Shown here: positions 34,210 through 42,275 of the stretch, piece after piece
Layout: each line of letters opens with the position of its first letter
Numbering within the stretch: the stretch's first letter is position 1
From: Paramacrobiotus metropolitanus
Lineage: Eukaryota; Tardigrada; Eutardigrada; Parachela; Macrobiotidae
Direction: 5' to 3'
NCBI RefSeq assembly: GCF_019649055.1
Contig: NW_026570241.1
Coordinates: forward strand, 1,378,501 to 1,442,500
Length of the DNA: 64,000 nt
The notes under the pieces: model-generated
Seen by the model: the letters and a program-made list of their open reading frames with translations, nothing else
Databases searched by the model: none
Told to the model about the DNA's origin: nothing
Position numbers and translations under genes: made by a program

Positions 34210-35599
34210 TTTTAATCAGTGATATGTATATCAGAATACAAATTTGTCGTAAGGATACCGACTGACTTACCATTAGAACGATCCAAATTCCACATGCAAA
34301 TACAATATGAAGCTACTTTGGACTGCATCCACTCCAATCAAATGGTTTCCGGATCTGAAGGGCGCGCCTGGTGCATAGTGCATACATAGCAGCTGATGGA
34401 ATTCTGCTATCTGGAATAAAATTCCCAAAAGGACAAGACGATGTTTGCACAAACATGGTGACAAGTGTGTCAATCATTAAAATATTGTTTGTGTTCCATA
34501 TCTAATTACCATGCGGTAATACAACTGTGCGCCTGTAGGAAAGATGTGTTGCAGCACACTCCTCATTCCAAACGGTTTATCAGCTTTTGTGGACGTCACT
34601 ATCAGTAATATCTATAAAATCTCGTATTTTATGACTTGATATTTGTCTGTTCTGCTGCACTCATGGCATGACTCTGTAAAAACTGGAAAGTGGAAAGCAG
34701 TTCACCGCAACATTTAATGCAAGTTAAAGTTCCTCTTCGGAAGCGATTGCATAATGGCTTCCTGGGAGCAATTTTTACTGTATGCATGTTTGTACGTAAT
34801 ACTCAATCTGTAAGGAAGTGTTAACTGCAATTTAACTAAGCCGATCGGTACACCTTTGTGATCAGATTTCGCACGGCAGTGATCACCCAACAATGGATAT
34901 TACCGTTACGGAATTAAAAATCCGATATTTAGCTATCTGCATATTATTACAGCTTATATGTAAAAGTCAAAAGATAGGTATCTAATTTATCGGATCAGCA
35001 AGCAGTAGAGAACGCGGCATTATCTAAGTTCCAAAAATTTATTGTCCGAAATTAATGATTTGGGTCGGTAACTGGATCTGTTTACTGCTTACTGTTGCCC
35101 CAGGCGTATAGGAGCTATGTATAATTAATGAATCAAAAGGATCTTTCCGCTAACGAGAAAAATAGACGAGACACTAGGCTTCCCTGAACATGGTTATTTG
35201 GCAGGATCGTATTGCAAATAGCGTTTTCTGGGCGCAGTACTGTTCTGGCTTCTTGTCTCCTAATGAGACGGATAATCATGGCGCCCAGGCCTTGCGCTAT
35301 GGTAATGTAATGTCACTCCTTCTTTGGTTCTGAACTTTGGCGCAGTCAGCTCTAGATTGTCCACTGCTTTCTTTGCAACTGTCATGAGCTACCATTACCA
35401 TTGTTTAATGCAGCATCCAAACGTTCCTGCTAACCACAAAAATAACGTTAGTGCACTTGTAATAAACTTTCGTGGTTTCTCTCGGCTTTCTACCCTTAGT
35501 TAAATGCTTCGGATCGACCACATCCATCTTTCCCGCTTATAGATTTTTGAATTATCACTTTGGAATTTTTAATTCGCTTGATATTATTAAAATAATCAA
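34210..35599. other. Intergenic
   Basis: Divergent spacer between GPCR I (minus) and J (plus). No gene seen. Confidence 0.45.
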
Positions 35600-36970
35600 A
35601 TGGTTTTTACTAACAATACAACCGGGAATTTCTCGTTTCCTACCGTTGGAACAATTTCCAAAACGGAAGTAACAATCTGGATTGGAATACAGTTTTTTCT
35701 GAGCCTACTGGGAGCTCTTCTCATCGTGCTCCTCTTGATGCTGATGTCCCGTTTGCACAAACTGAAAACCGGCTCTGGCTATCTCATCGCGCATGCTCTG
35801 CTTGTGGATCTGACATTCTGCCTGGTTATCACGCCCATCACCAATATCCCCATCTACCTTAAGCAGATAGATTTCGTCTTCCCGTACGATTGCACCTTCA
35901 CCAGCTTTTTAATGCTCCTGATCGTGTATACAGCCAACTGGACGGCCGTGGCACTGGCCGCTAACCGGCTGATCGCTATTTTACTACCGTACTGGTACAA
36001 GCGCTTTACATCACCGCGTTTCACTGCTTGCGTTGTGATGATGATCTGGAGTATGACGATGGTTTGTGCCGTTCCCACACTGGATCTGTTACCGGGATTG
36101 AAGCACGCATTATTGCCATCCGGCAGTTGTGGAGTGGTGAGGAATGAAGGGGTGACCTTTGCCATCTTGGGTACACTGGGAACGTACGTACCGCTGGTGT
36201 TGCTGACGATTATGTACAGCAGTTTATTCTTGATGTTTCGACTGGGTCGCCGGTTTAACGAAGGGAGGAGTGAGAGCCACAAAAATCTCCTGAAGAGGAG
36301 GTTGTCGATTGCGAAAGTGTTGGTTTTATCGTTGTTGTGGTACTGTTTGTGCACTCTGCCAACGGTCATTTTGACAATGTTTTATGGTGCTTGGTGGAGG
36401 AGAGATATAAGGTTACTGCTGTATACGAGAACCACGCAAATTCTCGGCTACGCGGCCAGTCCGGTAGGTATATACGTGCACTGTAGTCAACCGTTCCCAT
36501 TGCGGTGTTGAACAAAAAGTAATATGTATTAGGTACACGTAAAACTAATAGTAGGTATGCAACAAGGCGATATTCGGACCATGATAGGATCAGGCCTGCT
36601 CTTCGTATAGTATATCCGTTCTTTGTATCGTACAGCTGCTCTTCGTACCGTTAGAATCCTTCAAAAATCAGTGATCATATTCGAAAATCATCCAGGATCT
36701 CTAGGTTTTAATTCTGTGGTATGGTTAGTTTGATTACTGAAAGCGCTAAATGAGTATTCTAAAGATACCAGAGCAGGCTGATCTGGTTTTTATCACCGTC
36801 GGGAAATCGTCTTGTAAATGTACATAAAATTATGTTCATAACTTAATACTGATTTTCTTAAGGTTAAAGTTTATTAGATTAACTTTTTCTGTCTTCAGGT
36901 GTTTTTCTTAGTGCTGCGACCGGAGTACAGGATGGCCGTGAAACGACTGTTAAATATCGGAGATAAATAA
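35600..36970 (+). CDS. Orphan rhodopsin-class GPCR J
   Basis: Exons 35600-36463 and 36899-36970, 311 residues. N-terminus MVFTNNTTGNFS has Asn sites. Seven helices; Cys at TM3 (DCTFTSF) and loop 2 (SGSCGVVR); TM3 end ANRLIAILLPYWY; TM6 LLWYCLCTLPTVIL; TM7 GYAASP | VFFLVLRPEYRMAV. The intron is longer (435 bp) than in the paralogues but at the same codon. Tail very short (about 8 residues after helix 8). Intact. Confidence 0.88.
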
Positions 36971-37452: not shown

Positions 37453-40400
37453 TCATCTGTCCGTTTCCAGTAGATTAGGCGCTGCACAGTTGTTTTGATT
37501 AAAAATCACGTATGGTTGGTTTAATTGCACGTAATGGTTTTGAGCGTCGCGGTCAACAAGCGTTTCAATAGTCTGAACCAACGAGGTAAAACTTGGCCTC
37601 TGCGCAGCGTCATATCTCCAGCACTGTTCCATAATTTTGCACCTACCAAAATTCAGGATGGTTTCAAAATGCTGTGCGTTCAAGGTTACGACATCAGGCA
37701 CAAATTCTTACGTACTTGTTAGACTTAGTTTCTTAGATTCTTCTCTACAAGTCTACCGAGATGCAATACAACATCCGGAACAGCCACAAATTCGTTACTG
37801 TGTAATTACAATACAGATATTTTTGGGCAGTACTTAGTACTTACACCTCTTCCGGACAGTTTGGTGGCGCTACAGGTCTCAGGCCTTCATGCAGTGCTGA
37901 CGTGAACTCTTGGAGCGCAATTTGACGGAAAGTGTCGTGATAAGGAACCTTGCCGAACGAAAACATTTCCCATATGACGATTCCAAATGACCACACATCA
38001 GTTTTCTCTGTGAAGATCCTGTCTTGTAAACTCTCCGGTGCCATCCATCTGGCTGGAATTTTGGCATTCTGGAATTAACGAGTGAAGTTTAACGTTGTTC
38101 GCGCTTAGTGCAGCACTTCTCAGAAAGCAGGGAAGGTACGAGTATAAGCATTCAAGCGTACGAGCTGAGTTTTTCGCTTTAAAAAATTCACATGAAACTT
38201 TTAAAACTTGGACAACTCTCTACATTGCAACCGTGATACGCGTGCAAAGACACGGGACGACATCCAGGAATTTTGGGCTACTAGTACCTGAGCGTCAGCC
38301 ATTCTATAATATTCCGACTTCTGTTTGGCCAATCCGAAATCACAGATTCTCAGAATCTTGTTGTCGTAAACCAGAATATTTCGAGCAGCCAGATCTCTGT
38401 GAATAACACTGTGAAGGGCCAGATACTCCATCCCGCGGCTAATTTGGTATGTGAAGTTGATGAATTCGCGGTTAAGTAGAGAATATTCTGCAGGCGTAGG
38501 GAGATCACAGCCAACTGTGTCGGTTGTTGGGTCACACACGGCAGCGTTGACATAGCGCAATTCACTGCCCTCGGATTTCCGGGAAAGCTTGCCCTGATCA
38601 CGAAGATACTTGAGCAAACTGCCGAATGGTGAGTATTCCAACAGAAGATGCAGTTGCTCTTTAGAAGCAGACACAAGAAGTTAACCTTTGCTAACCTAAT
38701 ATCATTGCTGCGTTTTACAGAAATTTTATTTCTAACGTTAGTAACGTACCAGCTAAAACTATTCCCAGAAGATTGACAATGTTCAGATGTCGCCCAACGG
38801 AACCGTGTATGGCAGCTTCCTCCATAAGCAGCTTATGTTGATTAGCATCGGCAAAATTTTTGACGCATTTGACGGCCACCGTCCTGGGTGCAGCGCATTG
38901 CCGCAGCTTCATTGCTCGTCCCTTCCAGACAATTCCAAACTCGCCTTCATCGAGTTTTCTCTCTACGGCGAAACCATGCACATCGATTATAAAAAACCAC
39001 GATTATAAAAAACCACGATTATAAAAAACCACGATTATAAAAACAGGAAATTTATACCCGTTTCTTCATTGTTCAAAGGCTTAAGAACAGAATCAACAAG
39101 CCGTTGTTACACAAATTTCTACCTATTTTCAAAGCCCGTCTTGGAATTTTTAGTCGAGCGACCGTCGCCGGCATTGTCCATGCACGGTACATTTCAGTGA
39201 TGTGCTTGTTTGTCGCAGCTCTTACATCAGCCACAGACGTACTGGCAGCTTCCCGACGTTTCATCCGCCTGTGCCAATAACAAAGCAAACCTAATAACAG
39301 CAGTACAGCCGATAGGAGCGTGCCAACAGAAGCCCAGATTTTCAGCTGCAGATCTGCTCCCTCAGGCAAATCTTCTCGCACGATGATGTAGTCAATCAAC
39401 AACTCTGTTGTCATGTTGGCCGGACGGAATCCCGGGAACGCCGCTAGTTCGATCAATATCTGCATTCGAGTTGTCGGAATTTTTTCCACATCTGTCAGCG
39501 CTTTGATTTCTACATCATCGACGAACCATGTAATGCGGTCTTTCCGCCACTGCATTCTAAACAGGTGGAACTGCCCGTCGGCTAAACAGCTGTCGGCGGC
39601 ATATACAAAGTCGGCGACATCGCCCAACGACGGCGGACCGTAGCTGACTCCGATCTCCACGCGGTTTGAATCAGCCGTTATTAAATCAGCAATGTAGATC
39701 GCTTGCTCCTTACACACTGGCGATTCATCAAAGGCGCATCGATGATCAACCAGACGAAAGTAGGATGCAACCGACAAGAAGCGGAGATTACCCACCGGCA
39801 GCTTGGCGCGTATCACGACTTCCCCGTAAGTAAAGCTGAAGACAGATCCACTACTGATTTGGCCAGCGTAGTAGGAAGGACGGGAAGAGCTATCGGATCT
39901 GACTTCCGCACGGATTTGTAGTAAACCATCGGCGACCTGCACATTCTCAGGGCGTAAACGCATAGTGCGGTTCATACCGAGCGATTTTGTGGCAGTGCGG
40001 GTTCTCCAGCCGCTTAGAGACGGGCTCTCGAAATCTTCACGATACTTTTCCGCCTTGTGGACAACTGCAATGGTTTTAGTAAAAGTATCACGAATAGCCG
40101 GCGAAGAATCATAATACATGTCTACCCTGCCTAGAAACAGATGCGTAAAGTTACTATACGTCAAACGTTTTCCGGTGAACGATTTACTTTGTCGTACTTT
40201 TGCAAGGACTTTCAACAGGTATCGCTGGATTGTGTATCCGAACACTGTTTTTGAATGCAGTGGGACATGTCAGATGGTCCTTGTTCTTGCAAGCCAATTC
40301 GCCATACACGTATCCTTTTAGTGCTGGACAATATACCCATTGTTGAGACTCACTGGCCCACAGCGTATCTACCATAGCAAACGATGTCCATACGTTCATA

Positions 40401-41245
40401 AATTGTAATTCGCACGACTCTGACATGAGACGAAATACAGTAAGGCAGTCGTATCAGTAAATTTACCGACTGTGAGAGTATATTCAAAAACAACGCGATG
40501 GTCTTCCTCCACCGGAATCCCATTTCGGATGACCTCCAGTGACAACGCAGTGGTGTGGGAGAAGGCGGCTGTACGAAACTGCCCAGCACTTTTTGTAAGC
40601 TGGTATTTTGTAGAAGTACTACTGTCTCGCCAAGTCCACATTTCTTTTAACAAAATAAGCATGGTGGAGTTGCTCACTGTCTGGTGCTGATATACATAAA
40701 TGACGTCCGTTTGAGGCATATGCAATTCTCTGAAATATAGTATCACTACTCGAGTACTGTTTCAGCATCACTAAAAAATTGCAAACTACGTACAATTTTC
40801 GGTAATTGCTCCTGATTACCTGATGTAATTATGCTTCGTACGTATTGTATAATACGAGTATACGAAGACGTGCGTTTATAGATATATGTAAGTAAGTACA
40901 GTATGATAGTATCTATAATGTACCGATGTATACTAACCTCACATTGACATACAACGTGTATTTTCGGTGATTAACAGGAACAACGGCAACAGTTAGAGAA
41001 ACGTTGCAGTTCCTCAATGGATATTTTGAGAACTGAAATGTTCCACCGTATTTTGATGCAGTTATCACGGGTCCTTCTCGGTTACAGTAATCGTCGAGTG
41101 CAATGCTGCTGCCAGCCGGAAAGGCGCTAGACATTAGTGCACTGTCCGTGATGTCAGCTGTTAATAGCTGTGGTAATTGCAAGGAAAACATTAAAAAGCA
41201 GCAGAAATTGGAGTTATGGAATCTGGATTCTGCGTTTCTGGCCAT
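37453..41245 (-). CDS. Receptor tyrosine kinase with CUB-like and GH16-like ectodomain
   Basis: Eight exons, all in phase with GT-AG borders: 41245-40938, 40729-40467, 40419-40198, 40130-39123, 38962-38750, 38658-38288, 38068-37845 and 37642-37453; 932 residues. A hydrophobic leader (about 10-35) is followed by a CUB-like domain (about 50-190: [28 protein letters not shown]), a linker, and a GH16 beta-sandwich (about 296-515: [56 protein letters not shown]). One membrane helix follows (about 529-550), a basic stop and the kinase: [16 protein letters not shown] (K632), HRDLAARN (D760), DFGLA (D778), [19 protein letters not shown]. Kinase catalytic residues are intact and there is a kinase insert as in PDGFR/VEGFR-type kinases. 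The GH16 active site ExDxxE is replaced by AIYIAD, so it should bind rather than cut glucan. Confidence 0.85.
38985..39044. repeat. 16-bp tandem repeat in the kinase-gene intron
   Basis: Nearly four copies of GATTATAAAAAACCAC inside the 160-bp intron between the membrane-helix exon and the first kinase exon. Confidence 0.9.
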
Positions 41246-41942: not shown

Positions 41943-42275
41943 TTATTCCTCGTAGCTGATACACAGGCATTTGACCGGCGTTCCCAAGCAAATTCCCGTT
42001 CCGCCGTTCTTCTCCTTGCACCATTCTGAACACTCCTCTTCTTTGTTGGATTCGCACAGTAAGTGGACATTTCCGCCCTTCATGGTGTACGACGCTCGCT
42101 CATATGCGCGATTTGTGCGTCCTGCGCGCGGATCTTCCAGAACAACGCCATCTTCCTGGTCCGCTTGAAAAGCAGAATCTTCCTCCGTTGTTCGTAATGA
42201 ATTATCCTCGACTGGCTGGCTGAACACCAGCCATAACGTCGACCACAAAATGAGAGCCGTAAGAGCCAGCTGCAT
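41943..42275 (-). CDS. Secreted defensin-like (CS-alpha-beta) cysteine-rich peptide
   Basis: Single exon, 110 residues, ATG 42275. Signal peptide about 1-20 (MQLALTALILWSTLWLVFSQ), an acidic propeptide to about residue 60 with Arg sites suited to processing (EDPRAGRTNR), and a C-terminal domain with exactly six Cys: C74, C82, C86, C96, C103, C105. The spacing C-x7-C-x3-C-x9-C-x6-C-x-C is the cysteine-stabilised alpha-beta pattern of invertebrate defensins and related peptides. Net charge of the mature part is near neutral to acidic, unusual for a membrane-active defensin. It lies about 0.7 kb upstream of the receptor kinase on the same strand. Antimicrobial use is inferred; another secreted role is possible. 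Confidence 0.72.
   Translation of the reverse strand: MQLALTALILWSTLWLVFSQPVEDNSLRTTEEDSAFQADQEDGVVLEDPRAGRTNRAYERASYTMKGGNVHLLCESNKEEECSEWCKEKNGGTGICLGTPVKCLCISYEE

Follow-up and report, generated by a model that had tools for sequence, protein, structure and literature searches.

A tardigrade family of receptor tyrosine kinases with a pseudo-glucanase GH16 domain as putative sensing head

The receptor gene at the window locus

The window analysed here, a stretch of 64,000 nucleotides from the tardigrade Paramacrobiotus metropolitanus, is part of contig C21 (1,453,483 bases) of a 170 Mb genome. It contains on its minus strand a gene for a predicted receptor tyrosine kinase, which carries a domain of glycoside hydrolase family 16 (GH16) on the outer side of its membrane helix. 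A sequence-only reading of the window had joined eight exons into one frame of 932 residues, and our splice model of eight minus-strand exons at GT/AG sites likewise gives 932 residues without a stop. The NCBI protein of the locus, P0001 (“vascular endothelial growth factor receptor 1-like isoform X2 [Paramacrobiotus metropolitanus]”), has 893 residues, and its record lists a kinase and a GH16 domain as precomputed Pfam domains. Its exons are those of the eight-exon model except for two later acceptors, at 40368 (not 40419) for exon 3 and at 40064 (not 40130) for exon 4. In tblastn comparisons both extra stretches of the 932-residue model are largely without a match in the paralogous loci L012, L013, and L015, and one stretch each is so in L010 and L011. 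Because these stretches are mostly unmatched in the paralogues, the P0001 boundaries are favored, and the product of the window gene is likely the protein of 893 residues. The single open frame proposed earlier has thus stood, whereas its acceptors of exons 3 and 4 have been replaced. The gene is composed as follows:

40938..41245, minus strand: exon 1, with start codon, signal peptide (by eye) and first half of the N-terminal beta domain; splice model identical to P0001
40467..40729, minus strand: exon 2, second half of the N-terminal beta domain (earlier labelled CUB-like; family not established); splice model and P0001
40198..40368, minus strand: exon 3, short cysteine-rich module; boundary of P0001, the earlier start being 40419
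39123..40064, minus strand: exon 4, GH16 pseudo-glucanase, membrane helix, juxtamembrane segment and kinase start; splice model, Pfam and P0001, the earlier start being 40130
39373..40044, minus strand: GH16 domain within exon 4, P0001 residues 255-478; nucleophile Glu replaced by Ala
39283..39339, minus strand: membrane helix, P0001 residues 490-508; Kyte-Doolittle mean 2.26 over 19 residues
38750..38962, minus strand: exon 5, kinase P-loop and catalytic Lys (VAVK); splice model, Pfam and motif check
38288..38658, minus strand: exon 6, kinase insert; splice model, Pfam and motif check
37845..38068, minus strand: exon 7, end of the activation segment, APE and the helices after it; splice model, Pfam and motif check
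37453..37642, minus strand: exon 8, kinase end, C-tail and stop codon; splice model and comparison of the tail motif

Pfam assigns Glyco_hydro_16 to the window protein with E 1e-7 and 32.1 bits, above the cut-off of 22, so that the GH16 match on which the earlier reading depended is significant. The PK_Tyr_Ser-Thr match (E 4.6e-78) takes up positions 1-257 of the 258 in the profile. Between both domains lies a strongly hydrophobic stretch, and this domain order fits a membrane helix that separates the ectodomain from the kinase.

GH16 domain and kinase in one gene

The union of an outer GH16 domain, a membrane helix and a tyrosine kinase in one protein, as claimed by the sequence-only reading, is borne out by the Pfam matches, by hydropathy and by P0001, which contains the 39123/38962 junction. 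Since the gene models are computational, an adjacent GH16 membrane-protein gene and kinase gene could in principle have been fused by prediction. However, exon 4 alone encodes the GH16 domain, the membrane helix and the kinase-start motif, and the link between GH16 and kinase is therefore independent of any single splice. Furthermore, the paralogue at C130 (L015, 1471-2667) has an uninterrupted open frame of 399 codons that takes in GH16, the membrane helix, the P-loop and the catalytic Lys and so crosses the junction; its splice model places a 69-nt intron further on, ahead of HLNIINLLG. The same gene order recurs across the genome: a same-strand kinase lies within 6 kb downstream of 24 of the 41 GH16 clusters, compared to three with a same-strand kinase upstream and three with one on the opposite strand (among the kinase matches listed, 150 of 172). 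The 24 is a rough count, as the cluster at C154:34981-38107 probably reaches the kinase of the next gene and C7:2097427 (L051) was missed although its model has a kinase.

Spliced models show GH16, membrane helix and kinase in 12 of the 13 paralogous loci modelled; for the remaining one, L060 (C35), no kinase was found in the 3.6 kb downstream, and the L050 and L051 models stop short within the kinase. As the splice aligner was guided by P0001, the exon borders of the paralogues lean to that protein, and some short introns inside the exons for GH16 and membrane helix are alignment artefacts. Over the region searched, the NCBI protein P0006 agrees to 100% with the gene model that we built at C154, and separate annotations from a second tardigrade superfamily, those of Hypsibius exemplaris, concur. 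Judged from these gene structures, the architecture of GH16 domain, helix and kinase as such is virtually certain, and a fusion made by gene prediction is very improbable.

A GH16 domain that has lost its nucleophile

The window protein has both the GH16 profile and the jelly-roll fold, and its GH16 domain matches laminarinases in fold, some of which were solved with laminari-oligosaccharides according to their entry titles. The catalytic motif ExDxxE is absent from the window copy, which reads AIYIAD where EIDxxE is expected. In all 15 kinase-linked proteins aligned the nucleophile position is occupied by Ala, Ser, or Val, whereas the Glu is kept in nine of nine kinase-less public GH16 comparators (P0040 and P0086 are named bacterial, the others are metagenomic or unnamed) and in L029 of the same genome. 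The 15 do not include L054 and L057 (already represented by P0006 and P0007), L056, L060, P0008 (the L061 gene) and kinase-less or partial loci; for L051 and L059 the call of a loss is alignment-dependent, because there a Glu precedes the aligned nucleophile position by one or two residues. The acid/base position is Asp in 11 of the 15, Asn in two, His in one and apparently Glu in L058, there beside an alignment gap.

The intact fold, the frequent Asp at the acid/base position and the Glu apparently retained in L058 would suit a still-active glucanase tethered to a kinase. We regard this as very improbable, because the nucleophile is replaced in 15 of 15 and because laminarinases in which Ser or Ala takes the place of one catalytic Glu occur in ligand complexes (by entry titles), as expected of inactive enzymes. 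The ratio of non-synonymous to synonymous substitution rates (dN/dS) over the exon for GH16 and membrane helix was 0.09-0.36 in nine chosen paralogue pairs, a set outside which the window copy lies and in which dS exceeds 1 in three pairs. Going by these ratios, the paralogous ectodomain exons are under purifying selection, and the pairwise averages of the nine pairs gave no sign of diversifying selection. The lost nucleophile together with the low dN/dS makes the head look like a conserved pseudo-enzyme and not like a decaying one. In five of eight type-b proteins, both Hypsibius proteins included, the former active-site strand reads WPPx[IV][ST]xxDx[RK]G.

L029 (C25:1201946) has a GH16 domain with an intact EIDVME and no kinase nearby among the matches listed, and is probably an ordinary glucanase.

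Kinase and C-tail

The tyrosine kinase of the window protein is complete, as had been stated before: besides the strong PK_Tyr_Ser-Thr match, the VAVK lysine, HRD, DFG, and APE are all there. DFG is present in all 13 kinase-bearing models including the window, HRDLAxRN in 12 of them and HCDLAARN in L061; the model of L052 is without the usual VAVK. The nearest kinase sequences among the matches listed are mostly VEGFR, FGFR, PDGFR, or FLT3, with 9p9u, labelled EGFR and matched in four stretches, as the top row, and the fold matches listed (VIA) comprise PDGFRA, VEGFR2, KIT, FGFR, CSF1R and also RET and MET. By sequence and predicted fold, the kinase can be assigned to the PDGFR/KIT/VEGFR/FGFR class. 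Extracellular immunoglobulin domains were not among the five Pfam matches at E 10, and the ectodomain match is GH16.

The C-tail motif Y-x-x-[LM]-x-x-[PQ]-Y-x-x-[FY]-N was found in 15 of 19 rows, among them those of both Hypsibius proteins. Three genes are represented twice among these rows, and the misses are P0008 as well as L050, L051, and L061, the models of which end before the tail. Its Y-x-x-L resembles the Y-L-D-L site of FGFR1 that binds PLC-gamma, and this likeness suggests that the tail tyrosines recruit SH2 proteins.

N-terminal domain and cysteine-rich module

The CUB-like domain of the sequence-only reading found no support in Pfam or in a profile search of PDB sequences. CUB gave no Pfam match at E 10 in the window protein or in the paralogous N-terminal regions (seven N-terminal domains), and a profile of the seven sequences retrieved no PDB sequence at E 10. 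Residues 68-187 are predicted to be almost all beta, with a predicted local distance difference test (pLDDT) value of 39-86 by blocks of ten in the P0001 structure model, the full-length mean of which is 62.7. In a fold search with this model (VIA), all 50 matches listed are kinases; against a viral library the named rows are mainly kinases, after which come, with low TM-scores, proteins of the phage tail, lectin, or glucanase kind.

Both halves of the N-terminal domain are covered by eight models (window, L049, L051, L052, L053, L059, L024, and L045), all of which have an intron between them, and reading through in L053 encounters a stop. N-terminal beta domain and cysteine-rich module together are a trait of the window subgroup of the family. 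The exon-3 module, C-P-A-L-K-G-Y-V...C...C, is common to the paralogues with the N-terminal domain, and its cysteine pattern is kept in six of seven members and varied in L052. Weak matches to this module (E 6e-4 to 4e-3) were found at C56:697302, C56:645399, and C68:288986, with no GH16 beside them among the matches listed, so the module may also occur in other genes.

A receptor family in two tardigrade superfamilies

The family comprises, as estimated from sequence matches, about two dozen genes in P. metropolitanus. In homologue searches a query of the window type matched just its own NCBI protein P0001, and an alignment query added four further weak rows, kinases and one GH16 protein, none of which had both domains together. 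The wider family was reached with a type-b query, for which 8000 candidates were scored and 641 matches obtained. Among the best 120 of these 641, kinase and GH16 Pfam domains occur together in six proteins, all of them from tardigrades: P0006, P0007, P0008, and P0013 of P. metropolitanus as well as P0011 (775 aa) and P0016 (711 aa) of H. exemplaris. As this search favors close relatives, the six do not imply an absence outside the tardigrades. Our own Pfam scan placed both domains above the cut-off in P0011, P0016, P0013, and P0008. It also matched GH16 in three stretches of P0013 and in two of P0009, which suggests tandem GH16 domains in these proteins.

P. metropolitanus belongs to the superfamily Macrobiotoidea and H. 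exemplaris to Hypsibioidea; therefore the fusion should be older than the split of the two superfamilies, unless it has arisen twice. A tree of 15 GH16 domains and one of the kinases of the same 15 proteins (two kinases being partial; midpoint roots) have the same deep split between seven receptors with the N-terminal domain and eight simpler ones including both Hypsibius proteins, with support of 98/96 and 99/97, whereas the finer branching differs. A split common to both trees is expected if the GH16 and kinase modules diversified together. The sequence-only reading had suggested looking for the same architecture in related genomes, and the two annotated Hypsibius proteins with both domains now provide it. 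On this sequence evidence the architecture is stronger than had been stated, namely that of a multigene eutardigrade receptor family present in two superfamilies.

Some members are unusual. The annotated protein P0008 (L061, on C136) repeats a kinase segment, and the genome likewise has repeated kinase exons there, either by exon duplication or as an assembly artefact. L024 (C9:586402) and L045 (C9:597224) have N-terminal domain, GH16, and membrane helix and then a stop after a short tail (VVYENTACSKSV and VVYENTVCGKSV, respectively). They share their contig with the kinase-bearing gene C9:538763 and have no kinase within 6 kb downstream among the matches listed; they are possible kinase-less or decoy receptors.

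Neighboring genes

A single-exon gene for a secreted-looking cysteine-rich peptide of 110 aa with a CSalpha-beta defensin-like pattern lies at 41943-42275 of the window (minus strand), about 0.7 kb upstream of the receptor and on the same strand. Its best Pfam match is Toxin_3 (scorpion toxin-like domain) with E 8e-4, below the cut-off, and it has 10 matches genome-wide. Another GH16 receptor kinase (exons C7:2121316-2124820) has two relatives of this peptide gene, C7:2129021 and C7:2130347, at a distance of about 4-6 kb upstream, again on the same strand. Downstream of the window receptor there is an open frame of 306 codons at 35591-36511 (plus strand) that by eye has the look of a seven-helix, G protein-coupled receptor-like protein.

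What the receptors may sense

The protein can be assumed to be a single-pass receptor tyrosine kinase, the ligand-binding head of which would be a catalytically dead GH16 domain of the laminarinase fold. Its non-hydrolysing cleft would bind a polysaccharide, for which a beta-1,3-type glucan or a related microbial, algal, or fungal glycan is the likeliest candidate, and such a polymeric ligand would bridge two receptors. The PDGFR/KIT/VEGFR/FGFR-type kinases, with their intact catalytic motifs, would then trans-phosphorylate, and SH2 proteins would be recruited by the conserved tyrosines of the C-tail (Y-x-x-L/M-x-x-P/Q-Y-x-x-F/Y-N). What can be read directly from the sequences is the architecture and that it recurs, that the nucleophile is lost, that the kinase motifs are present, and that paralogues are under purifying selection; the putative glucan or glycan ligand is plausible from the fold. 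The earlier proposal of a sensor that signals by tyrosine phosphorylation therefore holds as a sound inference, based on the nucleophile lost in 15 of 15, purifying selection, kinase motifs, and tail motif. For the mechanism as a whole, glycan ligand included, we see an even chance.

Several points weigh against glycan sensing. The loss of the catalytic glutamates may go along with a loss of sugar binding, and divergent members, L059 and the C9 group, retain little of the cleft motif. Known glucan-binding modules are absent from the Pfam scans; CBM39, for instance, had no match at E 10 in the window protein or in four paralogous N-terminal regions. HCD instead of HRD in L061/P0008 and in Hypsibius P0016 means that some members may be weak or inactive kinases. 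The overall dN/dS is without the rapid ectodomain evolution that is often expected of a pathogen sensor. The defensin-like genes upstream of two GH16 receptor kinase loci we count in favor of glycan sensing, but this linkage amounts to one or two independent events.

As the main rival, the dead GH16 head would bind a protein or peptide ligand, and the family would act in development or physiology. The known ligands of the PDGFR/KIT/VEGFR/FGFR class are proteins, and purifying selection would agree with such a role. A precedent is beta-Klotho, the GH1-like domains of which each miss one conserved Glu and which binds the tails of FGF19/21 (PMC10229096). However, the GH16 fold is retained whole, and about two dozen copies with possible kinase-less paralogues would be less expected of a hormone receptor than of a recognition repertoire, so that we consider a protein ligand possible but rather unlikely. 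Alternatively, the glycan could be endogenous, such as a polysaccharide of cuticle, egg shell, or basement membrane, or could come from food algae and not from microbes. The substrates of GH16 homologues range over many polysaccharides, mucin O-glycans and carrageenans among them (by entry titles), and the strand motif conserved in the type-b proteins hints at a conserved ligand; this source of the ligand appears improbable to us.

Returning to glycan sensing by a pseudo-glucanase head, a tardigrade transcriptome survey reports that GNBP1/3 and Relish homologues were not detected and NF-kB pathway components are missing, whereas PGRP homologues occur in most eutardigrades and Toll-like receptors were found; it cautions that undetected genes may be unexpressed and raises the question of novel immune mechanisms in tardigrades (PMC7056985). 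The GH16 receptor kinase family is a candidate answer to that question, and no more. Microbial cell-wall glycans might be sensed via the expanded pseudo-glucanase receptor tyrosine kinases, some of them paired with defensin-like genes, in a system unlike Toll and Imd, which we put forward tentatively and consider unlikely at present. More broadly, the family is a candidate for the tardigrade sensing of microbes, food, or the animal's own glycans, and the pairing of head and kinase suggests a new route by which an animal could sense sugars, for instance fungal, bacterial, or algal ones. With at least two annotated members, P0011 and P0016, the idea can be tested in H. exemplaris, which is kept as a laboratory tardigrade.

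Comparison with known systems

It is largely the ectodomain that defines the known classes of receptor tyrosine kinases, and we know of none with an ectodomain of glycoside-hydrolase fold. A search of 5.39 million open-access papers (titles and abstract starts; subscription papers and preprints lay outside it) found no description of a GH16 receptor tyrosine kinase among the papers listed, and among the open-access titles listed on the expansion of tardigrade receptor tyrosine kinases none concerned this family, in agreement with the earlier reading, to which no such family was known. The protein records are already public, mostly named after kinases, and the label of P0001 is silent on the glucanase head. 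Should the family extend across the lineage, it would add a new class of receptor and a clear case of an enzyme turned receptor.

With the PDGFR/KIT/VEGFR/FGFR receptors the tardigrade proteins share a single membrane helix, the closest kinase sequence and fold, a kinase insert, and the tail Y-x-x-L like that of FGFR1, whereas their ectodomain is GH16 and immunoglobulin domains were not found. In contrast to GH16 laminarinases and endo-1,3-beta-glucanases, they are without the nucleophile, membrane-bound, and fused to a kinase. Insect GNBPs are secreted and have an N-terminal glucan-binding module. The tardigrade proteins resemble these GNBP/beta-GRP proteins in the animal GH16 domain without catalytic residues and in a likely recognition role, but differ by the membrane helix (P0001 490-508) and the cytoplasmic kinase, and no glucan-binding module was found in them. 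The closest architectural analogue is found in plants, in GH18 receptor kinases such as CHRK1 of tobacco, in which a chitinase-like glycoside-hydrolase ectodomain is joined to an intracellular kinase and for which a review expects an active enzyme (PMC5485988); they are, however, GH18 and not GH16, and plant receptor-like kinases instead of animal tyrosine kinases. Beta-Klotho with FGFR likewise puts pseudo-glycosidase domains in the service of FGFR signalling (PMC10229096), but there the domains are of GH1 type and sit on a co-receptor separate from the kinase, whereas in the tardigrade receptors head and kinase are one protein.

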